Shown: positions 5,241 to 58,836 of the stretch, in pieces
How positions within the stretch are numbered: position 1 is the stretch's first letter
Layout: each line of letters starts with the position of its first letter
Assembly: GCA_037974665.1 (NCBI GenBank)
Contig: CM075765.1
Location: 16,797,501 to 16,861,500 of the forward strand
Direction: 5' to 3'
Length of the DNA stretch: 64,000 nt
Origin: Ehretia macrophylla
Lineage: Eukaryota; Streptophyta; Magnoliopsida; Boraginales; Ehretiaceae
The notes under the pieces: model-generated
Seen by the model: the letters and a program-made list of their open reading frames with translations, nothing else
Told to the model about the DNA's origin: nothing
Databases searched by the model: none
Position numbers and translations under genes: made by a program

Positions 5241-5336
5241 TTAGTGGTTACAGTGGTTTTGAGGGCTTTGAGGGTTTAGAAGGTTGTAGAGAGAGAAACT
5301 TTCCATCTCACTCGAGGAGGTTAGACTTTTACATCT

Positions 5337-5684: not shown

Positions 5685-6397
5685 ACCCTAGGTGCATGAG
5701 ATGCCAGCCCGACTATGCTTGTGGTTTGGCACTGTTAATTCTGACATTACAAAGTCTGAAAAGCTGAGGTTGGATAATTTAAATTGATTGGAGTTTCTTT
5801 CGACCACAAAAAAACAAAAAAACAAAAAAAGACTGAAAAGGAAATATAATATTTATAAATAGTATACTTTATACACATTATTTGTGAAATTGGCTACTTC
5901 AAAAATAAGTGACGAACATTATTGCACGCCCGTACTAGATACATGTAAGAAAGAATGTGTACTATTTTAATTAACCCATCAACTTTGACCCAAAAACAAA
6001 AAGAAATGGTATACGATTTTCTGCCTAATTTAGCTTTTTACTTGTTCGCCCGTCACTGGTGCTGGGGCTTTTCGTTGCATGTAGGGCAAGAAATTAGTTT
6101 ATTTTTTGTTCATAAGGAAACTCAACTGGTGTGACCAAAAAAAAAAAAAAACTCAATTGATAAAATTTAATAATCGATAATTTAATCAAATTTAATTATT
6201 AATTAATAAATTTTAAATATAAAGATACGTCTTTTAATACATGCATCAATTTAATCAAAACTTTCAATCCATAATTAAGAGCGTGAATCAAATTTAAAAA
6301 TATATCACACTAAGACACACTCTTACCGTTTGGACGTCATGGGACTACAAGAAATTAGTTTATTATTTACACTCGTAGGTGGTCATGTGTTGGCACT
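5685..6397. other. Gene-free upstream region of the MATE gene
   Basis: AT-rich DNA with A-runs near 5808-5830 and 6137-6150. No ORF with coding character and no repeat with clear ends was seen. The part closest to the gene is presumably its promoter. Confidence 0.5.
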
Positions 6398-6403
6398 TAT
6401 ATA
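6398..6403 (+). promoter_or_regulatory. Putative TATA box of MATE copy A
   Basis: TATATA lies 90 bp upstream of the ATG at 6493. A C/T-rich stretch at about 6425-6480 follows, as in many plant 5' leaders. Position and composition are the only evidence. Confidence 0.45.
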
Positions 6404-6492
6404 CAGTGTTTTAATTTCTATTGATCTCATCATCGTCCTTCATCATCCACTTCTCTCTCGATCTCTCTATCCATACTTGACCCCCTGCAGCA

Positions 6493-9400: not shown

Positions 9401-9903
9401 TTTTTTAATTAAACTTAAACTTTTATGTTAGTTAAGGGAGAGAAGACGGAAAAACGAAGAGAGACAAAAGTTAATAAAAGAAGATAGAGAACAAATAAAA
9501 TTAAATTAACAAAAGAAGAGAGAAATCAAATAAACTTATTTAGAAGGAAACATTCAGTATTACTCTTCGGCATATAAGTGTCTTGACTTAAATCTAAATG
9601 TTTGACCTTGATTCTTGGTACAAGCTGATTAATAGATGTTGATGTTTTGCAGGGCATATGGGTTGGCATGTTGTCAGGAACAACAATTCAAACGTCTGTG
9701 TTGGTTTGGATGATATACAAAACAAATTGGAACCAAGAGGTACACTATTTAGCCAATAAGCATATCGACAACTGAGTTATATAAAATCCCCACACAAATT
9801 AATTTTCTCGGCACTATTATTACACTGATTTATGGGAAAAGGTTTTATAAGTAGTTTAATATTGCAGGCTTCCGTTGCTGGTGACAGAATAAAACAATGG
9901 TGA
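6493..9903 (+). pseudogene. MATE (DETOXIFICATION) efflux transporter, copy A, with one in-frame stop
   Basis: Multidrug and toxic compound extrusion family, a proton-coupled membrane antiporter for organic solutes. Exons with GT-AG introns: 6493-6822, 6937-7478, 8087-8173, 8459-8515, 8621-8859, 9141-9259, 9653-9739, 9868-9903. They sum to 1497 nt, or 498 codons plus stop, the usual plant DTX length. Landmarks are a hydrophilic N-terminus of about 55 residues, 'GMGSALETLCGQAYGAGQ', 'IPQIFAYALNFPIQKFLQAQ', 'VRVSNELGAGHPRKA' and 'GVAIGAGWQ'-like and 'GIWVGML' segments. By recall it is closest to the Arabidopsis DTX29-DTX35 group. The break is TGA at 7414-7416 (codon 270) where relatives and context expect Trp. 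Exon 5 ends in C before GTTAGT, whereas copy B has G. It could be a true null allele or a base error; the family call is firm, the substrate unknown. Confidence 0.88.
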
Positions 9904-12649
9904 GGAGAAACGAAAACAGATGCAGTTGATGCACATAGCATTAGTTGAAAGGAACTATATATATATATACCAAAACGTACAGCTTTCCCGTTTAAGATGT
10001 TATTGTTCTTCTTTTTCCTGTTTGGTTTTAACATGAGCTTAACGATGTATTTTTAAGGCTAGTATCTCTCTGTTATTGGTTTTTGACCCACCTCTTGTAT
10101 TTTCATAAACCTTTGTGAAAAAAAAAAAAAAACAAGGAAGATGTGAAATGTGTTGTTTATAAATATGTAGGTAAAGGCTCCTCTACACAACTTTAGCATG
10201 AGCTTACATGTAATATCGATGTCCGTAATGTTTGTCTACAGCTTTTCTCTATCATTGATAGTTAAGACTTTTAACCTTTTTTTTTTCTTACCCCATGAGA
10301 TTGGAGCCCTGATATTTTAACTGTTAAGGAGAATAACCTACCACTAATCTATTCCTGAATTTATAGTTAGCTAGAGTTAAGACTTTTAACTTGAGGATAA
10401 TGACTTGCAAGAGTTGGAGATTGAGATAAGTGGGGCTATTTTTTAGTCTCTCTTAATTGCTCATGTGTCTCTTACATCTATCAAGTATTATAGTGCCATT
10501 ATTAAGCTTCTCATTGTTGTTATTGAATCTTATTAATTGTGTCAACCTGGTTGTTGTAATATGCCCATTCAGTTTTTATTCTCTTCTTTGGCTTCACGAA
10601 TTTGAGAAAGAAAATTGAATTCCAATTATTTGTACTATCACGCGTGAAGGGTGCATGGGCCCTGATTTAATCACACTAATTTGAGAATGTTTTGTTGATT
10701 GGTATCTAATTGAAGTGGAGAGTGATGATTCGACGCAGCTTGCGATGGCCCGCCCCAAGCAGATCCATTATTTGTGTCAATGAAGGCGCAGACTGATCAA
10801 GCTGGGCTGCCTCAATTAAATCTGACCCCAAAGTAACATCAACATCAATAGGATTGTCTGAGGATTGCCCAAGTGGCAATAGGATTTACATAGCATTGTT
10901 CACTTGTCCATTTCCTTAGAAAAATTCTGCAAATCGTTCAACATTCCAGACTGAAGATATAGATCTTACACTGACATGTAAGTTTACATACTAGACTAAC
11001 GGTGTGGAATACCCGGATGTTTTTAAACCTATTCCATTTCTTTATTGTTCGTTTTATAGGTAGCAAAGTGTAACTCACGTTTGAGAAGAAAAGATAGTGA
11101 TCAAGATATTACGTTTTGTGGTTTTGAGTTGTCTAGAATGCTTAAGTAGTTGAGTGCTAAGGCACAAGGCACTTGCGCTCTTGAGATTGACACTAGCAAA
11201 TTCTCGAGGGCATGACAAATGCTATATGCTCATCACCATGTTTCTTATCTTTCTCTATTTAGTTGAAAACCTCGATGATTTGTCGTTCTTAACATTTTAT
11301 GTTTTTATACCATTAATATTAAATAAATGATATTTGTTTTCCACATTAGTTTGAAGAAAATGGACAAATCCACTATAAAATAGACAAATGATTCTCATCA
11401 CACTTGCAGGAAATTCTGTAATTTGGCAAGGCCTGACGGATAATCCGTTGTTGTAATAAGAAGTTGTGACTTAAAACTTTAACTTCTATTTTTACTGTAA
11501 ATTTTTTTAAAAAAAACAGTCCTTGATTCATGAAGCACAGATATTGTCACAAGTTATGAGTCAAAATAAGTGATATAAAAAAAAAAAAAGTAAAGGGTCG
11601 AGTTATGATCTAAGAGTTATGACAACTCGAAAAAAAAAAAAAGTTATGATCTAAGAGTGGGACATGAAGCACACATATTGTCTGAAAAGTTAATGTTTTA
11701 GTGGAAGCCACTTGAACTGTAGTTTTATGATCATCATCATACTATGTAGTATCACATTCTTCATAGTTTTTTCCTTTTCAGATCTTTCATCATAGCCTTA
11801 TCAATGACAAAAAAACAATCATAGCCTTATCACAAGTAAAAGGACAGATGGATAGAACAATTGGCCATGACAATGAGTGTTCATCATTAATGGAGAAAGG
11901 TAAAGTGCAGGGTCGGCATATCACATAATGGGGAGTATCGTATGAATAGTTGTCATTGTTTGTCCAAAATTTATTTTAGTCCCCATTATTTTAAAAAATT
12001 AAAAAAAGTTCTCAATATTTTCAAAACAAATCAAATAAGTTTTCAATGTTAAAAACCCAGTTAAAACTAACTGAATAATGGTCACGTACATGTCACATGA
12101 CCAGTAGTTAGAGGGTAGTTTCGTCAAATTGTAATAATATTTAATTAAGTCCCTAATGTATTGATAAACATTCAATTTACTCCTCATTATTTTACCAAGA
12201 TTCTTTTTAGTCCCTATTATTTGAACATGATTCAATTTAGTCATGTTCAAAACCATCGGTTGCAAGAGAAACGCCTTTGAGTTTGATTGCTTGAAACAAC
12301 CTCCCACGTCAATTTGGGTATTTTCGCGATATGGAATTGGGTCGCAACGTTAGAGGATATTGGCAACAACTAATCTTTGGTCAACTTTCAGACTATTGCA
12401 AGCACTGATACCATCTTGGACATGCAAAGGAGAATTGTATTTTGCTTCATCCAACTAAAAGTAATTTTTTTTTTCTCATTGTCATCATCATAATTATCAT
12501 CCAGCTAAAAGTATGATACAAAAAGGTGGAGAAGAACAAAAAAACATAAAGACACTGTCAACAATTTAGAAAAATAGCAAGTTTACCAAAGATGATGAAC
12601 GAGATAATAGCAAAGATTAAGAAGCAGAAGGGGATGATGGAATTACAGT
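9904..12649. other. 3' flank of MATE copy A, gene-free
   Basis: A 3' untranslated region and intergenic DNA, matched in large part by 54770-57650 in copy B. It has several A-runs and short low-complexity tracts. No coding region was recognised. Confidence 0.5.
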
Positions 12650-12843
12650 TGGGATGTTGAGGCAAAAAACAGATAAAGAAAGTAAGAAACTTGAAGAAGG
12701 ACGGGTATTTTTGCCCGTAACTGTGTCGTCACTTTTCCGTCACAAAACTGGTGTCAACATTTTCCTTCACTGTGCCGTAGCCACATCTGCGACGGTTTGG
12801 CTATGGTCCATCGCAAAATTTAGTTTTTTTTTTTTTTGTAGTG
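12650..12843. mobile_element. Possible CACTA transposon end
   Basis: The stretch ends in a T-run followed by TTTGTAGTG, the right-end consensus of CACTA elements. The DNA inside ('tgtcgtcac', 'gacggtttggctatggtcc') resembles their subterminal repeats. No matching CACTACAA left end was found nearby, so this would be a truncated relic. Confidence 0.4.
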
Positions 12844-13690
12844 GTTGCCTAAGATCGCGTTACATTTCTTCTTCATAGTTAATGAAAATTATTGGCTACT
12901 AGAAAAGTGAATGATGTAATCAAAGAGTAAGAGTAAGGTGAAATGTTCAAATAATGACATGTTGTAATTAGAGATTAACAAAAAATAAATAAACAAATGA
13001 GCGGATCAAATCTAATGGTTCATAACAAATTTCATCTAGTAGATGAATGGAAAAGTAGATGAGAGGATTCAAAACCTTCAAAAATATTTACCTCCTTGTT
13101 ATTTTTTCTATGTGCCTTAATAATAGGTAAATAAGCACCTTTTAGTTTCAAGATAGTGCAGTTAATTCTCAAATGCCAAAATTGTCATTTTCTTATATAC
13201 TTCAATGAAAGTCATTGAGTGCTTATATATTAGGCATTTGATATTTTAGGAGTTAAATGGACTATTATTAAAACCGTAAAGTGGTTATTGTACGGGATTT
13301 ACTTGTATATTTTGAAGCTCATAGAAGGATTAATTATATATATGCTTTTTGTCCTTAAAATTATATAAGATTTTATATATTGAGTGTGTGCCTAATTCTA
13401 TGACATACTAACAACTAGCACCTAGGCAGTGACTCAGGAAAACCACTTATTATCATGTGATTAAACATCATAATTAATGAAGTACATAATTATTTGATAA
13501 ATAATGGAAGTAATTAACTGTAATTAATTACAGAATTTTGGAATGCCTTTAGTAGCAAGGGCAAACCTATATTATGGCCAGTGGGAATTGTAACCCCTTC
13601 TCATTTCAATTTTTTTTTTTTTAAATGTTTGCTTTTTTAAAGTATTCTTTGACTAAAAAATCAATTTAGCTCCCAATGAAATTTTTTTTA

Positions 13691-14918
13691 GAGTAAAGGA
13701 CCAAAATAGTCCTTTATCTTATAAATTTTTTGACATTTTCGTCCCTCATTTACAAATCGTGACATTTTAGTCCTGCATATTTTATTTTGTGACAACATTA
13801 GTCTTTTTTGTAAAAACTGTTAAAATTTTAACAGTTCTCTCACGTACAGCTCACGTGACCCCCAAATTTCAAATTTAGAAGGGCAAAATCGACATTTTAC
13901 AAAATATGCCCCAATTCTGGGTCATCTTCTTCACCCATCAACCCAACCCTAACACTGCTAACGATCCAACCATTGGATCATCCTACTGTCAAGGGAAAAT
14001 TACTTGCCGTGTTTCGGCGACCTCAGCGCCATCGTCATATCGCGAATTTGACGTCGACAGCACCACGAACTGCCATCTTGCAGTTCGCCACTGTCTTCAT
14101 CTCACCGGCGCCACCACCGGCCACGACAAGCTTCATTGTCACCACCATTAGCTTTGTTTCATCGCTACGAACCTTCCTGTACCATCCAAGGACTTCAAAG
14201 CACCTCCGACGACGTCCGCCGTCACCTTGCAGTGCCGCCTTATTTGGCTCCATTGCCGATGATGTTTTGACCATATGAAGAACTGAACTTGCTTCATCAA
14301 AAAAGCAATAATTGTAGTATTGCATGTTAAGTCCACTTGTGAAAAAGATTGACAAATTATAACTCATGTAGATTTTTATGTCTCTATTAACTGAAAGACG
14401 AGCTATAATGTCTCGATTAACTGAAAGACAAGTTGGTGGGTATGGTGGATATGGTTCTTGGTATGGTGGTGATAAAGAGTTGGTAGTGGTGGTGATCAAG
14501 GTGAAGGAGAAGGTGATGGTGGTGCGGTGGTGATGATATGAATGATGATAAGCCAAAAAGAAAAGAAATTAGCTGAAATGACGATTTTGGCCCTCAGGGT
14601 ATCTCCAATAGGGAGGGCAAAATACAAAGCTTACTATTTTTTGCTATTTTTAGAGACTCGGGTCTCTAAAAATCATTATTAATAATTTAAATATACATGA
14701 GACCTATTACTTGTGTCAACTTTTGAGTTAAAATAGAGACCCATACTACACACTTGGCTCAAACACGTGCTGCACATGTGACATTTCCGTTTGGATTCTA
14801 ACGGAAAGACTAACGTCGCCACAAATAGAAAGATGAGGGATTAAAATGTCACGATTCGTAAATAAGAGACGAAAATGTCAAAAACTTTTAAGATAAGGGA
14901 CAATTTTAGTCATTTATT

Positions 14919-14920
<2 letters not shown>
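13691..14920. mobile_element. Mutator-like long-TIR element, possible gene-fragment carrier
   Basis: About 130 bp at the left end ('gacattttcgtccctcattta' region, 13691-13820) is repeated inverted at the right end (about 14790-14920). The 1-kb interior is GC-rich at 13905-14275 and unlike its surroundings, which fits an acquired genic fragment, but no protein was recognised. No transposase. The element lies in DNA missing from copy B, so it may have arrived after the duplication. The target duplication could not be fixed. Confidence 0.6.

Positions 14921-14921
<1 letters not shown>

Positions 14922-14970
<49 letters not shown>
14922..14970. repeat. (TA)n microsatellite
   Basis: About 49 bp of pure alternating T and A directly after the right TIR of the 13691-14920 element. 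Confidence 0.95.
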
Positions 14971-14974
<4 letters not shown>

Positions 14975-15569
14975 GTCAAATTGAGTGATTTTAACTTTTC
15001 ATTAAATAAAACTTTTGAATTAGCCCCCGTTTAGTAGTATATATATTTTTGAATAATTTGAAAGGTCTGAAGTGCAGATCCCTAGATAACCTTCCAAATA
15101 ATCAACTGGCCACTGATGTATATAAAGCTGCCGGCGTTATACAACTTACGATTCTTGAGAAGTCATGGTCCCGACTGTTCATTTATATTGAAGGCATGCT
15201 CAGTTGTGGCCAAGTAACGCCTTCATGTGGCCATTCAATTATTGAATCTCTTGACCAACAAATAAACGATGGAAAAGCTAAGATGCTATTTGAGTTCACA
15301 AATTGGACTTGGAGGCATTGTGCATGAAAATTTGTAATGTATAACCAAACAACAATTTGGTGGTCTCCAATCTGCAGGCTATCAAAAGAGATGGCAACGT
15401 GACCTGAGAATCTGTCAGGCCTGAAGTGTAGGTTTTGTCAGAACCAACGTGAATATGGACCTAATGTGAAGAGCCTTTCTTTTTATGCGGACATCTTTTT
15501 GCTTTGTCACATGTCAAATCATCAAATTTTTTAATGCACAAAACACGAATAGTAGCAGCATTATCAATT

Positions 15570-38647: not shown

Positions 38648-39118
38648 CACTACAAGATAACAGCCCTGAGGCTACGAAAAATGGCAACGAAAAAATATTT
38701 CATAGTCATTTTCAAGAACTGGTGACGAAGGGGCGATGAAACGAAATCTTTCATCACCGTTTGGTAGCTAAAATATGCGAAAATTATTTCTTTCAGAAAA
38801 AATACAAATGGTCGCCATTTGGTAGCCAAACAGCGACGAAATAGCAACAATAAAAGATAATTATTGATTAATTAGTTATTGGTCGCCATTAGGTTGCCAA
38901 ATGGCGACCACCTGGCCACCATTATCATTAAATTTTGTTCGCAACTTAATTACAAAAAATAAATGAGAAAAAATAATTATAAAATAAAAAAAGTATAAAT
39001 GTGGTCTCCGTTTTGTCGCTATATAGTAACCAAATGGTGACCAAAAGCAAAATTATTATTTTTAAAAAAATTTATAAAAAAATAAATTGACAAAAAACAA
39101 AAGTTAAACAAATTTTAT

Positions 39119-41500
39119 CTTTTGCATGATAGTTCGTAGTCCCGTGGCAGCCATTGGCCACCAAATGGCGACAAAAAGTAAAATTTTAGTTGCCCTTTGG
39201 TCGCCAATAGCTACAAAGGGGTGACGAAATATCTATGTTCATAGAAAATTAGGTTGATTTATAAAATAAGAATTAATAATAAAAAATACATTACAAGTTT
39301 ATGCAAGATCTATTTTGTTTTGATTAAAAATATATTATAAGGTTTACTTAATGGTATGGAGTTGTACATATTTAAGATATAAAAGCATGAAAATGAATTA
39401 ATAATTAATAATTCTATATTCTAATTAACAAAGGCAGGATTAATGAAATACAAAGTGAAAAACAATAAAAAATTTATCACTGTCATTAGTTTTTCACATA
39501 CCAATCAAATTCTAATTTCGCACTAATATTAATAAATTAGTGTAAATTGAAGAATGACTATAATAAATTATAATATTTAGCTTAGAAGAGCTACTTAAAA
39601 CAAAAGAATTGATTATATCAAACAAATTCTATTTTTTACATGATAGTTCGTAGCCCCGTGGTGGCCATTTGCCACCAAATGGCGACAAAAAGTAAAATTT
39701 TGGTTGCCCTTTGGTCGCCAATGGCTACGAAGGGGCGACAAAATATCTATGTTTATAGAAAGTTTGGTTGATTTAGAACATAAGAATTAATAATAAAAAA
39801 TACATTACAAGTTTGTGCAAGATCTATTTTGTTTTGATTGAAAATATATTATAAGGTTTACTTAATGGTATGAAGTTGTATATATTTAAGATATAAGAGC
39901 ATGAAAATGAATTAATGATCAATAATTCTATATTCTAATTAACAAAGGTAGGATTAATGAAATATAAAGTGAAAAATAATAAAAATTTTATCATTGTCAT
40001 TAGTTTTTCGCATACCAATCAAATTCTAATTTCACACTAATATTAATGAATTAGTGTAAATTGAAGAATGACTATAATAAATTATAATATTTAGCTTAGA
40101 AGAGTTACTTAAAACAAAAGAATTGATTATATCAAACAAATTCTATTTTTTACATGATAGTTCGTATTCCCGTGGTGGCCATTGGCCACCAAATGGCGAC
40201 AAAAAATAAAATTTTGGTCGTCCTTTGGTCGCCAATGGCTACGAAGGGGCGACAAAATATCCATGTTCATAGAAAGTTAGGTTGATTTAGAACATAAGAA
40301 TTAATAATAACAAATACATTACAAGTTTGTGCAAGATCTATTTTGTTTTGATTGAAAATATATTATAAGGTTTAATTAATGGTATGAACTTGTATATATT
40401 TAAGATATAAAAGCATGAAAATGAATTAATGATCAATAATTCTATATTCTAATTAACAAAAGTAGGATTAATAAAATACAAAGTGAAAACTAATAAAAAT
40501 TTTATCATTGTCATTCGTTTTTCGCATACTAATCAAATTCTTTTTTGGCACTAACGTCAATGAATTAGTGTAAATTGAAAATTGACTATAATAAAAGATA
40601 ATATTTAGCTTAGAATAGCTACTTAAAATAAAAGAATTAATTATATTAAACAAATTCTGTTTTTTGCATGATAGTTCGTAGCCCCGTGGTGGTCATTGGC
40701 CACCAAATGGTGACAAAAAGTAAAATTTTAGTCGCCCTTTGGTCGCCAATGACTACGAAAGAGCGACGAAGTATCTATGTTCATAGAAAGTTAGGTTGAT
40801 TTAGAACATAAGAATTAATAATAACAAATACATTACAAGTTTGTGCAAGATCTATTTTGTTTTGATTAAAAATATATTAGAAGGTTTACTTAATGATATG
40901 AAGTTGTACATATTTAAGATATAAAAGCATGAAAATAAATTAATGATTAATAATGCTATATTCTAATTAACAAAAGTTGGGTTAATAAAATACAAAGTGA
41001 AAAACAATGAAAATTTTATCATTGTCATTAGATTTTTGTATATCAATCAAATTCTAATTTTCACATTAATATCAAGGAATTAGTTTAAATTGAAGAATGA
41101 CAATAATAAAAGAGAATATATAGTTTAGAAGAGTAATTTGAAACAAAAACATTAATTACATAAAACGACAAAGAGTAAAATTTTGTTTACCCTTTGGTCG
41201 CCAATGGATATCAAGGGGGTACGAACTCTCCACATTTAGAAAAAAGTAGATTGATTTAGAACAGAAATATAATAAATTAGTGCTAGATTTATATCGTTTG
41301 ATTGAAAATATATTTTAAAGTTTATTTAGGGTATAAGGTTGTATTTAAAGTATAAGGACATAAAAATGATTTAATGATTAATAATTCTTTATTCTAACAA
41401 AAGTGAGATTAATGAAATACAAAAAAAATTAATTATATAAAAAAATATTTTGTCTTTTGCATGAAAGTTTGTAGGCACATGGTGGCCATTGGCCACCTAA
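39119..41500 (+). repeat. Tandem array with about 515-bp period inside the CACTA element
   Basis: Four well-matched units start near 39119, 39637, 40148 and 40664 ('catgatagttcgtag'), with a decayed fifth near 41455. Each has a palindromic core 'tggccattggccacca' followed by 'aatggcgaca' and then about 420 bp of AT-rich DNA. Spacing is about 510-520 bp. Confidence 0.9.
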
Positions 41501-41867
41501 TGGTGACAAAATATAATAATTTGGTTGCCCTTTGATCACCAATAGCTACCAAGAGGCTACAAAATCTCCATAAAAATAAGTAAATTGATTAATTTTAAAT
41601 TAATAATATAAAATAAATAGTAACTTTTAAATAATATAAAACATATTTGCAAAAAATTAATATAAAATAAATTTTCATTTTTAAATGAGACAAAAGTTCC
41701 ATATTTAATATAAAATAATTAATTGAAAATTTATTATAACACTATTAAAACCTAAATGAATAAATAAAATAAAACTAAAATAAACCTAAAAACTAAATAA
41801 AACCTAAACCAAGCTCTCCAAGTTTTTACTCTGGCGGCTCCCTTGTAATCCAAAAAACCCTATTTCT

Positions 41868-45860: not shown

Positions 45861-46111
45861 TCATGATCAACGTAAGTTTTCTTCGAGGCCCAAATTTTTT
45901 TCCCACAATCCAAACACTTACAATGATTCCACATCAACCCCAACTTTTAACTAGCAGCCATCATCCACTCACAGACATAACTCCACTGTACCCTACTATA
46001 ATCCACCAGTTATACCCAACGTTACTTCCCACGTACCTACTTCCCAACATCAGCCTCCTACTTCACACCTACCTCACATAGCTCCATCTCCATACACAAC
46101 CCGTCGCATTA
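45861..46111 (+). pseudogene. Gypsy gag, linker part between two insertions
   Basis: Continues the outer gag frame past the CACTA element as 'HDQRKFSSRPKFF' and a Pro/His/Ser-rich linker with one TAG. It ends at 'RRI' in the CATTA target site of the next insertion. Confidence 0.75.
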
Positions 46112-47383
46112 TGTAACGACTTCACATGTTCAGTTGGTTGTAACGGGAATTGACTAAGGCAATTGGCATGTGAGGTGTAGCCTATAAGAGGGGAGAGAAG
46201 GCACAGAACAAAGCAAGCAAACACTATCTTATTTCTATTTTGTTCTTCTTTCTTTAATTCTCTGTAATTTTCCTTTCTTTATGTCTTTTAATTCATCCTT
46301 AAGATCTTAATTCGTTACATTGGTGCTCTCGTTGAGAGTCGAACATGACGGAAGGAACGAGCCTCGTTGCTAATGGTGATTTTTGCTTATACTATCCCTA
46401 TCAACAAAGTGATTACCAATAATATCACCAGCAACAATACTACCCCTATCAACATTACTACCCCTCTCACCAATACTACCCATATCAACAATATTACTAC
46501 TATCACCAGCCATAAATCACACCACCGTCTTGCGATTCACAACACCTCAAAACACAACAAACGCAGTCGGCTCTAGACGAGGTGGAGATCAGGTGGAAAG
46601 CTCTGCAACTCATGTGACGACTGAGAACCTCTTCATGTTCATTTTAAATTGTTGAATGTCTTATTTGAGCATTAAATGTGCATTTATTTAATTTTAGCAT
46701 AAGGCACTATTCATAAGAAAAATTTACTGTTTAATTTTTCTGAAACTGTATTTTTCTCCTATCACATATCATGTAGGAGGAATGTGAAAAATATTATTTT
46801 GTGTATTTAATGTTGGGAGTATGCATTTAGAAAATAGTTTTCGTCTTGAATGAACAGTGTTACGAAAGAATAGTAACTTTTTGTAAAATTTTTATTTGGA
46901 CTTCTAGTGAATTAGCTAGACTTTGGATTTTTATTAGACCCAATTTACTAACTCAAACTCATTATTTCCTTAGTGTATTATTTATATAACATAATAAGAG
47001 CCAAAACAAAAAAAAAACAAAAAAAGAGGAGAAAAACTAAAAACACTGTAGCAAATCCGAAAATGGCATTGGAGGAGAATTTCTTCATCAAACCTTGGAG
47101 TTGAGCTCTTGGCTTGCTTTGGGAGGATTCTAGAGCACCTAGGAGCTTCACCACCTTGCCTATATCTTCATACAAGTGAGGGAGTTTTCATCCTTTTTTG
47201 TACATCTTAACTTATTTTATTGGTTATAGATTATATGATTAGTAATTGAAATAGTTTATATGTACTATTTACTCACTATCATGTGTTTTCTCGTGTTATT
47301 TGTGTTTAATTGCGAGTGCGGCCTACTTTGTCGACCCTCTTATGTGTTATTTGATATCTTGAGTGCTTGTGGACTTGTCTCGG

Positions 47384-47583
47384 GGTTGCGCAATCTTTTT
47401 CGGACATGGCAGCGTCGAGAAACACGGGCGGCGTCGGGCTTGCCGTACTCCCTCGACTACCATAGTGCCTATTCCCTTCTCGCTGAGGCATACTCCACTA
47501 CCCTAGAGGCGTGGTTCACCTGCTGGGAATGGACCTACCTCAGGAGAAAGAGTCGTAAGATCGGGATACATCCGGAGTATCCC
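47384..47583 (+). other. LTR hairpin module, copy 4
   Basis: In the left LTR of the 46613-50882 element. The main stem has several mismatches (CATGGCAG opposite CTACCATA; AACACGG opposite CCGTACT). The end hairpin GGGATAC/GTATCCC (47563-47583) is perfect. Confidence 0.65.
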
Positions 47584-49825
47584 AACTTGTTGGTGTATGG
47601 GTTTGTCGGCACTTACGTAAAGTTCGTGGCTCGTGGTTTGAGATCGAAGACTTGAAGTGGAACCGTATCTTTTTTAATGTGGTTAATTACTTAACTATTG
47701 ATCTTGTTGTTTTATGTTATATGACTTCCTGTGATTGCATATCATATTGCACGCCCCGGTATGCTGCATCACCTCCCTCACTGAGTAACTTAGGTTACTC
47801 ATTTCTCATTTTAATATGTTACAGGGGCAGTTAGAATAACTACCTTAAGTGCCGTGTTGCGGGTTGCCTATCGCGCTAAGGTTGGATGCCTACATGTGAA
47901 TTGTGTGAAGTTGCTGTTATATGATCTACTTTGAAGCTTGGCCTTGTATGTATTTGTTAGGCTTGAAGGAGTTTGTGTTGTAATTTAAAGTTTAAGCTCG
48001 TGTTATTGGTAGTTGGGATGTAATATTTGAAGTTAGGCTTTACCGCTTTGAATGCATGCTTGTGTGGACGATGAAAACTAATTAGTTGGTTGGACACAAA
48101 TTATAAGAAAGCTTGTTTGTTAGTATAGAGTGGTATGATAAGTGGATTAAAAGATAGAATTTCAATGGATTTAATTTTGTATGCTTGTGTGATATGTTGT
48201 TGGGTTCCAAGGCTCGGATGGTCTTGAGGAGCTAGTTGGCTTTATGAATCTTGTAAACTAGGTTGTATGAATGGTTGATTGTGGTCCAAGACTTGTATGT
48301 GATTGTTGGCAGGTTTCTAGATAGTCCTATATATAGGAGAAACTCCGTCCGTTTTTTTTAAAATTTCGTGCTCAGGTTTGGAATTGGGTGAGAATAGCAT
48401 GATAAATAGGAGTCCCGGTCTCGTGAGGGATCGGGGCGTTACAGAAGTGGTATCAGAGCTTAGCTAGTTAGCTAGGCGCAAGCCGGGATAGGGTCTTCGG
48501 CTTGTGGGGTAGTAGCCTTAATGTTAATGTGTTTAGAAAGTGTATGTGCATGTCTTTTGTGATAAGAGAGTTAATGTGATCAATGTGCTTATGTGATCAA
48601 CATGTTTTATTTATTGAGTGAACTAGTTGTGGTTTATGTGCTTGTGTGATAAGTGGAATGGATATGGTTAACGTGCTTGATGTGTTTATATGTTCAATGT
48701 GTTTATGTTATTAATGCGAGCTATGTGATTAACGTGCCTTGTGTGAATTATGTGCTTTGTGTACTTGAGTGCTCGATATGCTTTATATGACTAATGTGAA
48801 TATGTAATTAACTTGTTTTATGGGAAATTGTTGTTTCATTGACTTATTAGTTTATAATTTGTGTATGTCAACTTGTTGCTTATGTGACTTTACTTGTCAT
48901 AAATTGCTAACGTGATCAATGTGTTTTATGTGTTAAGCATGCTTACGTGAAACAATGTGTTTTATGTATGAGGGTAACTCACTTGTATGTGTAAGAAATT
49001 GTGAGGACGCAATTTTTGTAAGGAGGGGAGAGTGTGATGACCGAGAACCTCTTCATATTCATTTTAAATTGTTGAATGTCTTATTTGAGCATTAAATGTA
49101 CATTTATTTAATTTTTAGCATAAGGCACTATTCATAAAGAAAATTTACTGTTTAATTTTTCTGAAACTGTATTTTTCTCCTACCACATATCATGTAAGAG
49201 GAATGTGAAAAATATTATTTTGTGTATTTAATGTTGGGAGTATGCATTTAGAAAATAGTTTTCGTCTTGAATGAATAGTATTACGAAAGAATAGTAACTT
49301 TTTGTACAATTTTTATTTGGGCTTCTAGTGAATTAGCTAGACTTTAGACTTTTATTAGACCCAATTTACTAACTCAACCCATTATTTCCTTAGTGTATTA
49401 CCTATATAACATAATAAGAGCTAAAACAAAAAAAACAAAAAAAAAAAGAGGAGAAAAGCTGAAAACACTGTAGTAAATCCGAAAATGACATAGGAGGAGA
49501 ATTTCTTCATCAAACCTTGGAGTTGAGCTCTTGGCTTGCTTAGGGAGGATTCTAGAGCACCTAGGAGGATTCTAGAGCACCTAGGAGCTTCACCACCTTG
49601 CCTACATCTTCATACAAGTGAGGGAGTCTTCATCATTTTTTGTACATCTTAACTTATTTTATTGGTTATAGATTGTATGATTAGTAATTGAAATAGTTTA
49701 TATGTACTATTTACTCGCTATCATGTGTTTTTTCGTGTTTTTTGTATTTAATTGCGAGGATGGCCTACTTTGTCGACCCTCTTATGTGTTATTTGATATC
49801 TTGAATGCTTGTGGACTTGTCTCGG

Positions 49826-50025
49826 GGTTGCGCAACCTTTTTCGGACATGGTAGCGTCGAGAAACACGGGTGGCGCCGGGCTTGCCGTGCTCCCTCGACT
49901 ACCATGGTGCATATTCCCTTCTCGTTGAGTCATACTCCACTACCCCAGAGGCGTGGTTCACCTGTTGGGCATGGACCTACCTCAAGAGAAAGGGTTGTAG
50001 GATCGGGACACATCCGGAGTATCCC
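49826..50025 (+). other. LTR hairpin module, copy 5
   Basis: In the right LTR of the 46613-50882 element. Palindrome GGTTGCGCAACC is at 49826-49837; outer stem CATGGTAG/CTACCATG is perfect; apical stem has one mismatch; the end hairpin has one mismatch (50005-50025). Confidence 0.7.
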
Positions 50026-51225
50026 AACTTGTTGGTGTATGGGTTTGCCGGCACTTGCGTAAAGTTCGTGGCTCGTGGTTCGAGATCGAAGACTTGAAGT
50101 GGAACCGTATCTTTTTTAATGTGGTTAATTACTTAACTATTGATCTTGTTGTTTTATGTTATGTATGACTTCCTGTGATTGCATATCATATTGCACGCCC
50201 CGGTATGCTGCATCACCTCCCTCACTGAGTAACTTAGGTTGCTCATTCCTCATTTTAATATGTTACAGGGGCAGTTAGAATAACTACCTTGAGTGTCGTG
50301 TTGCGGGTTGCTTATCGCGCTGAGGTTGGATGCCTACATGTGAATTGTGTGAAGTTGTTGTTATATGATCTACTTTGAAGCTTGGCCTTGTATGTATTTG
50401 TTAGGCTTGAAGGAGTTTGTGCTGTAATTTAAAGTTTAAGCTCGTGTTATTGGTAGTTGAGATGTAATATTTGAAGTTAGGCTTTACCGCTTTGAATGCA
50501 TGCTTGTGTGGACGATGAAAACTAATTAGTTGGTTGGACACAAATTATAAGAAAGCTTGTTTGTTAGTATAGAGTGGTATGATAAGTGGATTAAAAGATA
50601 GAATTTCAATGGATTTAATTTTGTATGCTTGTGTGATATGTTGTTGGGTTCCAAGGCGCGGATGGTCTTGAGGAGCTAGTTGGCTTTATGAATCTTGTAA
50701 ACTTATGAATGGTTGATTGTGGTCGAAGACTTGTATGTGATTGTTGACAGGTTTCTAGATAGTCCTATTTATATAGGAAACTCCGTCCGTTTTTTCTAAA
50801 ATTTCGTGCCCGGGGTTTGGAATTGGGTGAGAATAGCATGATAAATAGGAGTCCCGATCTCGTGAGGGATCGGGGCGTTACAGCTCAAGTACAGCTCGAC
50901 CCAACAACATACCCAAGAGGAAGTGGAGAAAATGTGGAAAGCTGTACAACTCAAGTACTGCCCGACCCAATCCGAAACCCAAATCCAAAACAACGACAAT
51001 AACAATTATCAAGACACTAAGACAACGTCGTTTGTTGGTTCAAGGCTCCCGAGTGTTGACGACTCATTTTGTGACAAAGAAGCTTACATGGCTACCGCCA
51101 CTGAAAAACTCAAAGTGGATAGGGTCGTTTCCACCGTTGAGACGAAAAGTATTTCGGAAGTCGACGAGAAGAAAGATGGCGAAGAGACGAAGAAGACAGC
51201 GGAGGTTGTCATCTCTCCTACGGAA

Positions 51226-53256
51226 AAAAACAGCAGTTACTGGTTTGATTAATATTACTAGCAAATTGAGTGATTTGGATAGCGCTAAAAGGATGTTTGA
51301 TAAAATGTCTGTGAAGGAAGTGGAAGGAAGAAGAGAGAAAAAGAGGGGAGTTAGAGATTCAGGTTCACAATTTGAAATGGATACAGCGGGTAGTAGGGGA
51401 ATAAGGAGAGGAGAAAAAGGTGAAAGGCGAGGGAGTTTAGTGATGACGGAAGAGGATGATGTAGATCAAGAGGAAGATGAGGACGAGGATCGTTTAAAGA
51501 AAAGTATACGAGAAATGGGAAAATGTTTAGCTAAGCCAAAGAATGATGAGGATAATGGTGATCATAATGTTGAATTTGCCAGTAGAAATGTGCACCTTAT
51601 TACCTCAAAACACAGTTGGGACCAAAAACTGGAAGAATCGAGGAGGGATGGAAAAATTGTCATTGCAAATTTCAGTGCAACATGGTGTGGCCCTTGTAGA
51701 ATGATTGCACTATTCTACTGCGAACTATTGGAGAAACATCCTTCTATGAATTTTTTAACAGTCGATGTTGATGAACTAACTGATTTCAGTTCTTCCTAGG
51801 ATATTATTGTTAATTATGTTCCTTCATTTGATGATCTTGTTAATGATTGTTCTTTGCTGGTTATTCTTGTTAATGTTGACGAATTTGGTGAGAAAATGCT
51901 CTATGCTGCAGAGCCTCTGATTGAGGCACATGACTTGTTTGATAAAATGCCTAAAAAGAGTTGTGCTTCTTATACTTCTATGCTAATGGATTGTTCTGTG
52001 GGCAGCTCATTCTATTCCCCTGATTTAGGAAGAAGGCAACCCTTGGGTGAAATAAAATCTGCAGAGGATGTTACTGCTCTTATTGATAATAAGAAGATAG
52101 TTATTATTGGGGTGTTTCCAGAGTTTTCTAGAGAGAAATATGAGAATTTCACCACTCTGGCTGAGAGGAAAGCTGACCAAGCGCACTGTCCAGAAGCCTA
52201 TAATTCGCTTCTCATGGTAATGTCTAGGTGTAAAAGGTATGATTGGTTAGAACAGATTTTGGAATAAATGAGTGTTGCTGGATTTGGCCCATTTGTTAGC
52301 ACATGCATTGAACTGGTGGTGAGCTGTGTCAAAAATCATAAACTTAGGGAAGCATTCAATCTTATTCAGACCATGAGGAAATTTATATTTTGCCCAGCAT
52401 TTTTTGCTTATACAACTCTAATTGGTGCTCTGTTTGCTGTCAATGAACCTGACCTTATGCTCACACTTTTTCATCAGATGCAAGAATTAGGCTATGAAGT
52501 TAATGTGCAATTGTTTGCTACTATGATTCGAGTGTTTGCCAGGGAGGGTCGAGTAGATGTTGTTCTCTCTCTCTTGGATGAGATGAAAAGCAACTCTTTT
52601 GATGCAGATCTTGTTCTTTACAATGTTTGTATAGACTGCTTTGGTAAGGCGAGTAAGGTGGATATGGCTTGGAAATTCTTTCACGATATTAAGGCACATG
52701 GACTCACGCCTGATGATGTTATCTATACAAGCATGATAGGTGTTCTTTGCAAGGCTAGTAAACTTGATGAAGTTGTGGACCTTTTCGAGCAAATGGATTA
52801 GAAGAGGATAGTCCCATGTGCATATGCTTATAACACCATGATCATGGGCTATGGATCAGCTAGTTTATTTCCTAATGTATTGACTATGAACATAATGATT
52901 GATCGATTGTGTAAAGTTCAAAAACTTGATGCAGTTTGTTCAATATTTGAAAAGATGGATCATAAAGTTTGCACCCCAAATTCTGTTACATTTTTCTCCC
53001 TGATAGATGGTTTGGGTAGGCATGGCAAAGTAGATGATGCTTACAGATTCTATGAGAAGACGTTAGATGATGATCGAAATCTAGATGCTATTGTCTGTAC
53101 ATTCCTAATCAAGAGTTTTTTCAAGTCTGGGAGAGAGGAGGATGGTCATAAGATTTACAAAGAAATGAGGAATAAGGATGTTATTGAGCAGGAATTTGTT
53201 GATTCCTACCCGGGACTGAACCTTGAGGATAAGGTTCTTTCGAATGGGGGAGGTAA
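51226..53256 (+). pseudogene. Chimeric reading frame: PPR - thioredoxin h - PPR - PDI - PPR - pol tail
   Basis: One frame runs about 2 kb, interrupted only by TAG (51797), TAA (52265) and TAG (52799). In order: a PPR-like repeat ('SDLDSAKRMFDKMSVK', about 51250-51315); an acidic linker; a thioredoxin h (h9-like) from Met 51515 with redox motif WCGPC at 51683-51697, cut just after its first half; a second PPR piece ('AHDLFDKMPKK'); a PDI-like non-catalytic domain segment ('IKSAEDVTALIDNKKIVIIG', about 52040-52170); a long PPR array (about 52180-53190), by recall like the At3g06920 type, with an internal deletion after 'YNTMIMGYGSA'; and 'LNLEDKVLSNGGGNV', a gypsy pol C-terminus. No introns. 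The first in-frame stop falls where thioredoxins have Trp. Confidence 0.85.
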
Positions 53257-53469
53257 TGTAACGATTCCACGTGTTCAGTTGGTTGTAACGGGAATTGGCT
53301 AAGGCAATTGGCATGTGAGGTGTAGCCTATAAGAGGGGAGAGAAGGCACATAACAAAGCAAGCAAACACTATCTTATTTCTATTTTGTTCTTCTTTATTT
53401 AATTCTCTGTAATTTTCCTTTATTTATGTCTTTTAATTCATCCTTAAGATCTTAATTCGTTACACATTA

Positions 53470-53631: not shown

Positions 53632-53830
53632 TAGTGGGGCGGAGCCAGGATTTTTCTCTAGTGGGGGCTAAAATCATACAATTAAATATTTATATATAAA
53701 TATTTTTTTTCAGTGAGGGCTGATTCATTTTTTAACCTAAAAATACCTTAAAAATACACACATTTTTTAATAAAATTTGAGTTGAGTGGGGGCTACAGCC
53801 CCCACAATTCAAAGGGTGGCTCCGCCACTG
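53632..53830. mobile_element. 199-bp MITE
   Basis: Ends TAGTGGGGCGGAGCCA and TGGCTCCGCCACTG are inverted copies with one extra base, a very common plant MITE end type. The interior has paired 'gtgggggctaaa' and 'tgggggctacagcccccac' tracts. The target duplication is not clear. Confidence 0.7.
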
Positions 53831-55358
53831 CTCTCCGGTAATCATACTCCAACTACGTTACGTTTCAGCGGCAACCTATATATATAGAATCTCAAGCATT
53901 TAAACTTTCTCTATCAACAAGCTAAATCAGAGGGTTATCAAATTGTACAATTTAGGAGTCGCGATTGGAGCTGGGTGGCAAGCATATGTGGTATATGTGA
54001 ATATAGTTTGCTACTATGTTTTTGGTCTTCCTTTACGGCTGATTCTAGGCTATGTAATCAACTTGGGTGCTAAGGTATTTACATGTTCTCTACATCTTGT
54101 TCATTGTCTCATAATTGCTTCAGTATGATTTAGACTTCTCCATTAGATTATTTAATGATTTTGTTTAAATAATAATCATAATACTTCGTGCTATTTTTAT
54201 TGCTCCTAGATCAACTGTTGATTTTTTTAATTAAACTCGAACTTTTATATTAGTTAAGGAAGAGAAAAAGGAAAAATGAAGAGAGATAAAAGTTAATAAA
54301 AGAAGACTGAGAAAAAATAAAATAAAATTAACAAAAGAAGAGAGAAATAAAATAAACTTATTTAATTGGCATGGTAATTAAAAGATGATAATTAATTAAT
54401 AAAAAAAGAGAAATGTCTAACTTTATTTTTCGATATATAAGTGTCTCAACGTAAATCTAAATGTTTGACCTTGATTCTTGGTACTAGCTGATTAATAGAT
54501 GTTGATGTTTTGCAGGGCATATGGGTTGGCATATTGTCAGGAACAACAATTCAAACGTGTGTGTTGGTTTGGATGATATACAAAACAAATTGGAACCAAG
54601 ATGTACACTATTTAGCCAATAAGCACATCGACAACAGAGTTATATAAAATCGCCACACAAATTAATTTTCTCGGCACTATTATTACGCTGATTTATGGGA
54701 AGGTTTTATAAGAAGTTTAATATTACAGGCTTCCGTTCCTGGAGACAGAATAAAACAATGGTTAATAAAACCTCTGTGATTGGTCTTTGACTCACCTCTT
54801 GTATTTTCATGTTATTAATAAAACCTTTGCTCACTAAATTAGAAAAAAAATATGAAATATGTTCTTTATAAATATGTAGCTAAAGTCTCCTCTACACAAC
54901 TTAATTTTGCCAATAAGCGAGGCTTACATGTAATATCGATGTCCGTAAAATTTGTCTACAGCTTCTCTCTATCATTGCGTATCAACTGCGATTTTATGGT
55001 GCTCAATTATTTGCTAAGAATGGGTTATTAAGTATTACTATTTTGATTAGCCTTAGTATGGAGGGGTTTCATGATCCTTTATTAAGTAATTATACCGATA
55101 ATTGGCGGTGATATTTGGAACTCCTTGTTTTGATAGTTAGACTTTTATTTTTTTTTTTTTCACACCCCTATGAGATTTGAAATTTAATCTTCTGACTATT
55201 AAGGGAAGTAACTTACCACTAAACTACTCGTAAATTTCTAGTTAGTTAGAGTCGAACAGTAACTTGAGGATAATGACTTGCAATAGTTAGAGATTGAGAT
55301 AAGTGGGGCTAGTTATTAGTCCTTAAGTCTCTCTAATTAATTACTTTTTTTTTTTTTT

Positions 55359-55405
55359 GGGGAGGGGGGGGGGGGGGGGGGGGGGGTGGGGGAGGGAGGG
55401 GGTGG
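55359..55405 (+). repeat. G-run
   Basis: About 47 bp of nearly pure G with single A or T interruptions, right after a T-run. It replaces about 140 bp of ordinary sequence found in copy A (about 10460-10600). Confidence 0.95.
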
Positions 55406-55538
55406 TCAATAAGAAAGAAAATTGACTTCCAATTATTTGTACTATCACGCTTGAAGGGTGCATGGACCTTGATTTAATCACACTAATTTGAGCATATTTT
55501 GCTGATTGGTATCTAATTGAAGTGGAGAGTGATGATTT

Positions 55539-56942
55539 TGTTGGGAATCTTGAATGTTATTTAAAAATTTTAATTAAATAAACGCAACGAAAAATAAATA
55601 CTTATGCATCATGTTTATAACTAATTACGTAAATTACAATACAAAATAAGCATGGGATGATTTCAAGATTACCTTTAAGATGTCAAATCCGTTGTCGAAT
55701 TAATCAATCAAAAGCTTCCCAATTGTGAAACTTTCGAAAGTATTCACACGAAATCTGAATCATTAATAAGCAAAATCCCCACTATGAGTTTTAGAGAAAA
55801 CTAATTTTGGTATGAAAGACAGGATTTGTGTTAGCTTTTTCTATCTATCATAGTTTCTTATTTATAATAAACACTGAACATGTTAGGGCTAGCTTTTGGG
55901 TCAGTCCTAAATACTAGGCTTGGACTGATTAAATGATTGGACTAATATTCGAATCTAATCAGTCTTAAGTCCAATATTTAATTTACTTTTCTCGCTGATT
56001 AATTTTCAATCTCTTTTGTGTGTGATCTCTCACGTTCATAATTAATTGGTAGCGAAATAATATTAATCTAATTAATATTTAAGTAGAACTCTTCTAATTC
56101 AATTTTTGCAAGTTGTAAGTGACACTTGACAGTATATCACGACTACCCAACTAATGATGAAGTATAAATATACGAGCTCTTTCAATAAGTAATTATCATG
56201 CAATCAATTCCTTTTGTCTAAATTATCTTGATTGAGTCAGAGTCATTGATATGGTCGTCAAACTTTATTACTCAACTCCAAATCTATTTAATCGGTAACA
56301 TATGAATAATACGTGGAACGACTTCTACAATTCTACCTTGGCCAATTATTTGCAATTACTTAATTAATAGATAGCATAAGATCCCTGATTGATAGATTTC
56401 GTATCTAAACACACTTATCTCCATGCCGCAATAGATCGTAACCACTAAGTACTTTATCTAATCCTTAATGAGGACTAGCTTCATTGTACTAGCAAATTAT
56501 GGTATCCTTAACACAAGATAATCGTGGTGTCTTAGGTTTTAAGGACTAACTGAACTATTACACTGTACAATGAATTATTGACCAATCCACGTAATTTGTT
56601 GCACTGACGGTTATATCCAGTCACTTGTTCTCAATAAGCATTTATACTTCTACTCTTATGATATGAGATTAATTGCCAAAATTAATATTTCATATTATTT
56701 AGATTGTAGACTGTAATCTAATCTATTCGGATAAACTGACGTCTAATTAATTCATCTTACGATCGAGGATTACTTTTAGAATATATTTAATATCCTTATC
56801 TTTAAAGATAGAATTTATAAATATTATTTTAAAAATTTGTATTTAAATCATTAATCACATTAAATAATATTTAATAAATTATCTAAATTAAATAAATAAT
56901 ATAATTATTATGTTTTAAAATAAATTGACTTATAATCCAACA
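55539..56942. mobile_element. Solo LTR, 1404 bp, absent from copy A
   Basis: Starts TGTTGGGAATC and ends TAATCCAACA (TGTTGG/CCAACA inverted ends), flanked by GATTT (55534-55538) and GATTC (56943-56947). Copy A has the uninterrupted site 'gatgattcgacgc' at 10726-10738, which confirms both ends. No internal domain, so recombination has removed it. The superfamily was not determined. Confidence 0.88.
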
Positions 56943-58836
56943 GATTCGAAGCAGCTTGCAATGGCCCGCCTCAAGTAAATCCATTATTTTACCAAAAAAA
57001 AAGGTAAATCCATTATTTATGTCAATGAAGACGCAGACTTATCAAGCTGGCCTGCCTCAATTAAATCTGACCCCAAAGTAACATCAACATCAATAGGATT
57101 GTCTGAGGATTGCCCCAAGTGGCAATAGCATTTACGTAGCGTTGTTCGCTTGCCCATTTCTTTAGAAGAATTCTGCAAAACGTTCAACGTCCTGTACTAA
57201 AAACCTGGGCTCTACTGGATGTGTAGATTCACGCACCAAATTAATGGCGTATGATTTACGGACGTTTTTAAACATTTTTCATTTCTTTATTGTTTTTTAT
57301 AGGTGGCAAAGTGTAACTCACATTTGAAAAAGAAAGACAGTGATCAAGATATCACATTTTGTGATTTTGAGTTGTCTAGCATGCTTAAATAATTGAGGGT
57401 CAAGACACAAGACAGTTGTGTTCTTGAGATTGGCACTAACAAATTCCGAGAGCGTGACAAATTTAATATGCTCATCGCCATGTTTCTTATATTTTTCTAA
57501 TTAGTTGAGAACCTCGATGATTTGTCATTCTTAACATTTTATGTTTTTATACCATAAATATTAAACAAATGATATTTGTTTTCCACATTATTTTGAAGAA
57601 AATGTTATTTTGATCCACATAACACTTGTAGGAAATTCTGTAAGGCAAGGCCTGACGGCCAAGCTTTTTGTTAATGCCCACAAGTTATGAGTCAAAATAA
57701 GTCTTTGTGACCAAGAGTTGGATGAAATAATTAACTTGTTGTAATTAGAGGTTGTGATTTAAAATTACGATTTCGACCTTTACTATAAAAATTAAAAAGA
57801 AAAAAAAAAGTAAGGTGAAATGCTCAAATAATGTCATGTTATAATTAAAGATTAATAAAAAATAAATAAATAAATAAATGAGTTGATCAAATCTGTTATA
57901 ATAGATCTTATCTAATAGATGAGTGAGAAAGTAGATGAGAGGATCGAAAACCTTGAAAAATATTTATCTCCTTGTGATTTTTTCTATGTGCCTCAATAAT
58001 AGGTAAATAAGCACCTTTTAGTTTCAAGATAGTGCAGTTAATTCTCAAATGCCAAAATTGTCATTTTCTTATATACTTCAACAAAAGTCATTGAGTGCTT
58101 ATATATTAGGCATTTGATACTTTAGGAGTTAAATGGACTATTATTAAAACCGTAAAGTGGTTATTGTATGGGATCGACCCCTATGTAGTAGTATATATTT
58201 TTTCGAATAATTTGAAAGGTTTCAATTGCGGATCGCTAGCTAGATAACCTTCCAAATAATCAACTGCCCACTGATATCATTATAATAGGTGCTTATATTT
58301 GTTTTTGTAATGATATAATATATAGAGTAGTTATCTATTTTAGTCTCTCAATAATATAATTAAAGAGTTGAATAAATTAATTTTATATTTTACATTTTAA
58401 AAAAAATTTACATTACACACGTGTGACGTTCATGTATCGTACGGGTATAAAACTAGTATATATATAGCCAAAGTTATACTTATACAGCTTACGATTCTTG
58501 AAAAGTGATGGTCCCTACAGTTCGTATTTATTGGAGGCATGCTCAGTTATGGCCAAGTAACGCATTTATGTGGCCATTCAATTATTGAAACTCTTGACCA
58601 AAAATAAAACGACAAAACGATAAGATGATAAATATCGATGTATTTGAGTTCACAAATTGGACTTGGAGGCATTGTGCATGCAAATCTGTGATGTATGTTG
58701 GGATGGCAAAACCTATAACCAAACTTCAATTTGGGGGTCTCCATATCCGCAACGTGAATGGCAACGTGACCTGATAATCTGACAGGACTGAAGTGGAGTT
58801 TTGTACGAACCAACGTGAATACGGACCTAATGTGAA

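Follow-up and report, generated by a model that had tools for sequence, protein, structure and literature searches.

We report a non-autonomous LTR retroelement family in Ehretia macrophylla in which the interior of the elements is very probably a patchwork of spliced host mRNAs, captured by template switching and with open reading frames favoured. One member lies in the window, the 64,000-nucleotide stretch of contig CM075765.1 (assembly GCA_037974665.1) analysed here. It retains its LTRs, PBS, PPT and target-site duplication (TSD), four donor introns are exactly lost from its interior, and its pieces meet at short overlaps. The same mosaic occurs at an independent site, other mosaics occur elsewhere in the genome, and joints between pieces are in frame far more often than expected by chance.

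Results

An LTR element with intact ends encloses a host-gene chimera

An earlier note on this DNA described an element with 208-bp LTRs carrying a five-part chimera of thioredoxin, PDI and PPR gene pieces. The element was confirmed, spanning positions 46112-53464 with the ends of an intact LTR retrotransposon: paired TG...CA LTRs, a 5-bp TSD (CATTA), a PBS and a PPT (Table 1). The complement of the PBS, TTGGTGCTCTCGTTGAGAGTCGAA, is laid out like the 3′ terminus of a tRNA, with T-loop, T-stem, acceptor and CCA. When the flanks were joined in silico with a script, an open frame of an older gypsy gag (...YTTRRITPKEMQARRDKGLCYYCDEKY) was restored through the zinc knuckle, indicating that the whole unit came in as one insertion into an older retroelement. 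The LTR pair shows 7 differences and no gaps (K2P 0.0345), which would date this insertion to about 1.3-2.5 million years at substitution rates of 1.3e-8 and 7e-9. The element nested within it has two 1.83-kb LTRs and 588 bp inside, with TGGTATCAGAGC as its PBS; at K2P 0.0438 its LTRs nominally differ more from each other than the outer LTRs do, a gap that sampling error can explain (P 0.18, rounded 5%).

Table 1. Features of the chimera element, in window coordinates.
Feature	Position	Strand	Remark
Target-site duplication CATTA, left copy	46107..46111	.	
5′ LTR, 208 bp (TGTAAC...GTTACA)	46112..46319	+	
PBS TTGGTGCTCTCGTTGAGAGTCGAA	46320..46343	+	Similar in other family members
gag-like reading region, first part	46344..46612	+	Broken in window copy; common to some members
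Younger nested LTR element	46613..50883	+	Not part of chimera element
gag-like region, second part (frame 1)	50884..51226	+	
Module A, short PPR-like piece	51227..51333	+	Recurs in family
Piece B, purine-rich	51334..51492	+	Open in chimera frame
Thioredoxin h9 piece	51493..51806	+	WCGPC kept; one in-frame stop
Piece D	51807..51877	+	Between thioredoxin piece and module E
Module E, short PPR-like piece	51878..51993	+	Recurs in family
ARGONAUTE piece, ArgoL1 region, 62 bp	51990..52051	+	
Protein disulfide isomerase (PDI) piece	52048..52168	+	Two exons joined
PPR piece H, At3g06920-type gene	52159..53168	+	Two in-frame stops
pol-like tail, ...DSYPGLNLEDKVLSNGG...	53169..53238	+	Chimera frame
PPT TTCGAATGGGGGAGGTAA	53239..53256	+	
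3′ LTR, 208 bp	53257..53464	+	
Target-site duplication CATTA, right copy	53465..53469	.	

The pol domains of an autonomous Ty3/gypsy element are absent from the window element in the Pfam scan, which gave no match for the gag-like part and none for protease, RT, RNase H or integrase in the window pieces or the scanned ORFs of other members. The pol-like tail (LEDKVLSNGGG) presumably resembles gypsy pol ends, and it also resembles the tail of the gypsy element found at locus L024. A 25-mer of the LTR searched in viral contigs gave no matches.

The chimera occupies a single forward frame and is assembled from spliced donors

From module A through B, the thioredoxin piece, D, E, ARGONAUTE, PDI and H to the tail, all parts share one forward frame (51227 mod 3), which has just three stops before its end inside the 3′ LTR, as previously noted; the lowest count in the best frame among 200 dinucleotide shuffles of 50884-53255 was 37. 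The announced thioredoxin, PDI and PPR pieces were all present (thioredoxin, Pfam E 1.2e-10 and PDB 3d21 E 9.4e-35; PDI, E 3.6e-9 from protein homologs; the two main stop-free parts of H, Pfam E 7.7e-32 and 2.2e-22, and likewise protein homologs), but the chimera has more than five parts, including the ARGONAUTE piece, which had been overlooked. No Pfam match was obtained for piece B. Of the three segments that had been called PPR, H does come from a PPR gene, whereas A and E are recurring modules that fall below the Pfam cut-off and stand above shuffles (0/2000 reach E, 1/2000 reaches A). Neither A nor E matches the H donor gene by BLAST, so the suggestion that one parent PPR gene had been broken up was not supported; nor are they fresh captures, as both recur across the family. 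Among the 46 proteins returned by a whole-chimera search from 7992 scored candidates, none was listed as combining thioredoxin and PPR domains. Near an A-run, the gag-like frame of the window copy falls out of register with the chimera frame by one position; in the related element L011 it continues into module A. We considered a programmed -1 frameshift at the A-run and rejected it, since the -1 frame closes within a few codons (by eye).

Donors were sought in the host genome (1.58 Gb). Four exons of the thioredoxin donor (L045 on C12) match the piece at 93-96%; it comprises 22 nt of 5′ UTR, exons 1-3 and the opening part of exon 4, which run together without the intervening introns of 921, 1096 and 293 bp (lengths from alignments), which have GT-AG ends. 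Similarly, two exons of the PDI donor (L048 on C11) match at 95-98%, and the 94-nt GT-AG intron between them is absent from the chimera, bearing out the description of these segments as intronless. The ARGONAUTE piece was traced to L049 on C7 (62 bp at 95%; ArgoL1 by Pfam), and H to L010 (C1:118624904-118626165). H matches this donor at 96% and 93% and lacks one internal stretch of it; the edges of the deletion meet at 52848-52861, where they share the 7-mer CAGCTGG. Joint overlaps measure about 3 nt (E/ARGONAUTE), 4 nt (ARGONAUTE/PDI), 10 nt (PDI/PPR) and 7 nt (the PPR deletion); DNA repair is another process that can leave overlaps this short. Spliced donors together with such overlaps are the traces left by a reverse transcriptase jumping between mRNAs, and they uphold the proposal that mRNAs were joined by template switching. 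The E-ARGONAUTE joint is common to the window element and element L050.

The PPR donor itself has one in-frame stop in the assembly at about position 1593 of L010 (C1:118.6256 Mb), and a second, decayed copy of it (L022) lies at C1:119.649 Mb. Its deletions differ between captured copies (1568/1777 in L017 versus 1604/1845 in the window lineage), and so do the distances to the donor: dS over 107 codons is 0.122 for L017, 0.045 for the window and 0.015 for L011, the first two being rough values from 8 and 3 synonymous changes. Two different deletions and unlike donor distances suggest that this donor was captured repeatedly. A module-A element on C17 (L046, 1315-1722) holds a separate thioredoxin h9 capture with exons 1-2 joined, a longer 5′ UTR and a different end point.

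The same mosaic is present at an independent site

L011 (C2:52904412-52907460, minus strand; 3048 bp) has the same piece order at 95% identity, its own TSD (GCCAA) and no nested insert; it is an insertion independent of the window element, judged from its sequence, and supplies the second genome copy that the earlier note had sought. The two copies carry stops at 3 (window) and 4 (L011) places in the window codon register, with 0 shared, and L011 further differs by a 1-nt and a 28-nt gap. Because the stops lie at different places, the frame was probably open in the common ancestor of the two copies, in keeping with the idea that the product was once an open reading frame. L013-L015 (C2:16.49-17.01 Mb) share the TSD and flanks of the window element, so they were rejected as independent insertions and treated as segmental duplicates; about 0.5 Mb thus holds four copies of the chimera element together with nested insert and flanks, all sharing one TSD.

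An assembly artefact, or a chance stacking of pseudogene pieces, could be entertained for the oddity of the arrangement and for nothing beyond it. The piece order is preserved in three segmental copies and in one independent insertion, and similarly built mosaics occur on several chromosomes, so that the probability we attach to this account is negligible.

Related elements carry other mosaics

An LTR search in which the best 40 of 264 candidates were scored gave 40/40 matches, and family stretches were retrieved from the host genome in sets of 14, then 20, then 5. Setting nested insertions aside, family elements measure about 1.6-3.6 kb; a gag-like start and a pol-like tail enclose what is mostly a mosaic of host genes. 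In copies with related LTRs, wherever PBS and PPT can both be read, they closely resemble their counterparts in the window element; many copies that also have the tail share the gag-like start, yet their mosaics differ. The tail was found in 23 of the 30 loci examined, the window included, and was absent within the stretch examined at L021, L023, L030, L031, L035, L039 and L040. Module A recurs in L011, L012, L024, L026, L032-34, L039, L040 and L046, and module E at 33 other genome places among the 41 matches listed (best 40 of 59 candidates), one of which may be the original PPR gene.

Above the curated Pfam cut-off, 21 families were identified in 13 elements (window, L012, L016, L017, L025, L026/L032, L027, L029, L036, L037, L038, L043 and L050): thioredoxin, PPR, proteasome, THH1/TOM, malic enzyme, UDPGT, bromodomain, TFIID 20 kDa, cyclophilin, PRPF40A FF, PSMD12/CSN4, ribophorin II, MutS V, class II tRNA synthetase (Ala), protein kinase, MTHFR, argonaute (three domains counted once), HSP70, nodulin N, glycosyl hydrolase 100 and Sec15. 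MCM, EMC1, Malic_M, Cullin and PRP39 fell below the cut-off and were left out of this count. Outside the window, 21 of 29 sense ORFs had a Pfam match above the cut-off; among the longest antisense ORFs from each of ten elements, which were mostly shorter than the sense ORFs, 0/10 matched at E 0.001. What had appeared to be a single curiosity is thus a member of a family.

Of 12 separate insertions examined, nine have perfect 5-bp TSDs (the window element, L011, L016, L024, L025, L026, L032, L036 and L038); with automatic boundaries, none was found for L012, L027 or the pair L028/L029. By their ORF limits, the stops of L028 and L029 coincide in place, and the two look like one duplicated insertion, and L033 and L034, with small mismatches, look like relatives of the L032 insertion. 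The pol-like ORFs in L012, L016 and L024 look like nested elements by eye. At L024 (C8), a region read by eye as gypsy gag-pol lies nested in the family member at 1784-7224 and has direct repeats of its own; its gag looks like the gag in which the window element landed.

We weighed capture at the DNA level, through a transposon, a Helitron or repair synthesis, with the flanking LTRs accidental. Available portions of one source (PMC2774510) agree with the general picture that Helitrons and Pack-MULEs carry gene mosaics, a precedent for such capture, but the clean absence of four donor introns contradicts it, and the sense orientation of the Pfam-identified pieces and the perfect TSDs at most insertions also speak against it. 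We therefore regard this route as extremely unlikely.

Joints are in frame and frames stay open beyond chance

We scored the frame at joints between neighbouring pieces, a piece being a Pfam match above the cut-off, the PDI piece (identified by its donor) or the tail. Left out were modules A and E, the 62-bp ARGONAUTE piece of the window, the PPR-tail joint of L016, all of L024 and, as copies of counted mosaics, L011, L018, L019, L028 and L032-34. In 13 elements, 25 of 30 counted joints were in frame (P 2.4e-8 against a chance of one third), with the pieces taken from ORFs picked mostly by length and some joints inherited by descent. Restricting the count to host-host joints gave 16/19 in frame (P 7e-6), and a looser list that included sub-cut-off pieces gave 29/32. 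The out-of-frame joints were malic-UDPGT in L012, Nodulin-tail in L025, GH100-tail in L026, PPR-ribophorin in L037 and Argo-Sec15 in L050; since mostly the longest ORFs were picked, out-of-frame pieces may be missed.

A shuffle test that involves no choice of ORF measures openness and not frame sharing. For 10 of 12 elements, none of 200 dinucleotide shuffles had as few stops as the best sense frame; in eight of the 12 this frame had 0-17 stops, against 35-44 in the lowest shuffle (13 for the short L038). The exceptions are L026 (42 stops, lowest shuffle 40) and L012 (43 and 43), which do not stand out from shuffles. L017 has one stop-to-stop frame of 1128 aa, and in L027 a 716-aa frame holds TFIID 20 kDa, CSN4, cyclophilin, FF and UDPGT pieces, a sub-cut-off MCM piece and the tail.

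Without any selection, a shared frame might simply follow from the way in which joints form or are detected: coding pieces would dominate and some joints would be inherited. The derivation of the counted joints from selected ORFs favours this explanation, as does the fact that several modules were inherited as a group. Set against it are the excess of in-frame joints, in the full and the host-host count alike, over the one third expected, and best sense frames with stop counts far under the lowest shuffles in eight elements. On balance, we consider a by-product unlikely, and the preferred reading remains that open frames were favoured.

Protein sequences show little sign of constraint

Between the window copy and L011, the whole chimera has accumulated 56 nonsynonymous and 16 synonymous changes (dN/dS 0.96). 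The other pairs gave 1.52 (window/L013), 1.02 (window/L014), 0.67 (window/L015), 1.28 (L017/L019), 0.59 (L017/L018, P 0.02), 1.01 (L028/L029) and 0.95 (L033/L034), so the eight values of 0.59-1.52 scatter around 1 and protein constraint is not evident; such comparisons mostly measure decay after insertion and are compatible with constraint in the moving lineage. A value of 0.69 for L019/L018 was discarded, having been computed in a wrong frame with 50 stops in each copy. The PPR module of L017, L018 and L020 gave 0.37 against the donor (P 0.03-0.04). The low L017/L018 value and the PPR-module pairs below 1 might point to a degree of protein constraint, acting either on the donor or within the element; we rejected the shared PPR modules as evidence because they contain too few changes. 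The stop count was likewise uninformative as a sign of selection, with 3 seen and about 1.0-1.7 expected for the ages used.

At positions invariant among orthologs, the thioredoxin piece is changed at 3/16 and the PPR piece at 15/68; no thioredoxin among 88 orthologs breaks more than 2, and single PPR orthologs break 1 to 12. With its C-terminal part missing and these changes, the thioredoxin piece was rejected as a whole working enzyme.

These data bear on whether the chimera is a new gene like maize Bs1, its fused protein functional and kept by selection on its sequence. Long continuous frames, the retained WCGPC motif, the two lower ratios (0.59 for L017/L018 and 0.67 for window/L015) and the reported transcription and translation of Bs1 (PMC13317346, available portions) would fit such a gene. 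The ratios near or above 1 in the six other pairs, the broken invariant positions and the differing mosaics between elements do not, and we hold it to be very improbable; protein function is accordingly an unlikely reason for the open frames, as far as the sequences can tell.

Other features of the window

A MATE transporter gene lies at 6934-7413 (Pfam MatE, E 1e-27). Long duplicated blocks (9057-15470 versus 53872-58836) are 77-94% identical, and to the eye 53888-54073 resembles MATE exons, but Pfam found no match in 53904-54125. A tandem MATE duplication is likely from these similarities. Beside the 3′ flank of the chimera element, 53632-53832 has inverted ends like those of a non-autonomous hAT element (GGCGGAGCCA..., by eye). 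LINE-like remnants occupy the minus strand at 1241-4679 (RVT_1, E 2.4e-17; DUF4283, E 3.1e-18), and a tandem array of approximately 514-bp units, with copies 72-92% alike, extends over 39104-41618. Rfam at the gathering threshold gave 0 matches in the whole window.

Discussion

We propose that the element RNA and host mRNAs would meet in particles of an autonomous partner, none of which was found. Reverse transcriptase would jump between RNAs at short matches, with the two ends of the element supplying priming, and the product of these jumps would then insert. Later jumps between family RNAs would pass modules A, E, H and UGT around. We are less sure of a further step, by which RNAs would multiply well only if one frame ran unbroken from the gag-like start into the 3′ LTR, where its stop lies, for example through escape from RNA decay or through translation that aids packaging. 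Selection of this kind would keep openness and not protein sequence, and copies would decay after insertion at about neutral dN/dS. In its fullest form, our proposal makes the family an empty shell, whose own parts are the LTRs, priming sites, gag-like start and pol-like tail, and whose middle is exchangeable, in-frame, spliced host mRNA, with openness selected and exons shuffled serially; our judgement on this is evenly poised.

The precedent named in the earlier note stands: in the portions of the sources available, Bs1 is a maize LTR retroelement with pieces of three host genes (PMC13317346, PMC4717578), namely an ATPase, a xylan endohydrolase and a glucanase (PMC13317346). As in Bs1 (Elrouby and Bureau, in the parts available), host genes are represented in the window element by exons only, several intronless pieces being fused into one chimeric frame inside an LTR element. 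Unlike Bs1 as described there, the window copy has at least four donor genes and two recurring modules and belongs to a family with differing mosaics; its captured genes also differ, a comparison made by gene and not by Bs1 sequence. As far as we found, Bs1 is the one well-known case of multi-gene LTR capture. Captured host genes in LTR elements have been described in maize, rice, sorghum and pepper (PMC2774510, PMC3726574, PMC5664825, available portions), and the accessible pepper account of retroduplication likewise has spliced host gene sequence in LTR elements.

Other classes of element share some of these properties. A TRIM is a short element without a coding region, a definition at odds with the 3048 bp of L011 and the long frames in the family. 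Available portions of one survey record gene acquisitions in 30 TRIMs of 7 subfamilies, which resemble the present family in their short LTRs, non-autonomy and exons-only content; the family described here differs in its elements of about 1.6-3.6 kb, largely host-gene mosaic (PMC4717578). According to the same portions, Pack-MULEs hold exons and introns (PMC4717578). The window family has LTR ends and has lost introns.

Pack-MULEs and Helitrons are DNA elements in which one family can hold many-gene mosaics. LTR-mediated retroposition by template switching has been proposed in animals, with a jump between element RNA and mRNA in the particle at microhomology; the window family differs in its serial jumps and frame sharing. 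A review, in its available parts, describes aORFs explained by transduction as present in one or few copies and transduced sequences as usually sense (PMC7264820). Our literature search, covering titles and abstract openings mostly outside subscription journals, found no LTR family with multiple mosaics of this kind.

Many mosaics in one genome turn an anecdote into a data set, in which donors, joints, ages and frames can be read. Two questions become open to direct test: how frequently reverse transcriptase links host mRNAs in series, and what keeps long frames open in non-autonomous plant elements that encode no protein they need. With family copies carrying different gene mixtures, the element looks like a natural gene-shuffling machine and a standing source of new domain fusions. 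If the empty-shell reading is true, the family would keep making in-frame multi-domain fusions and passing modules between its copies.
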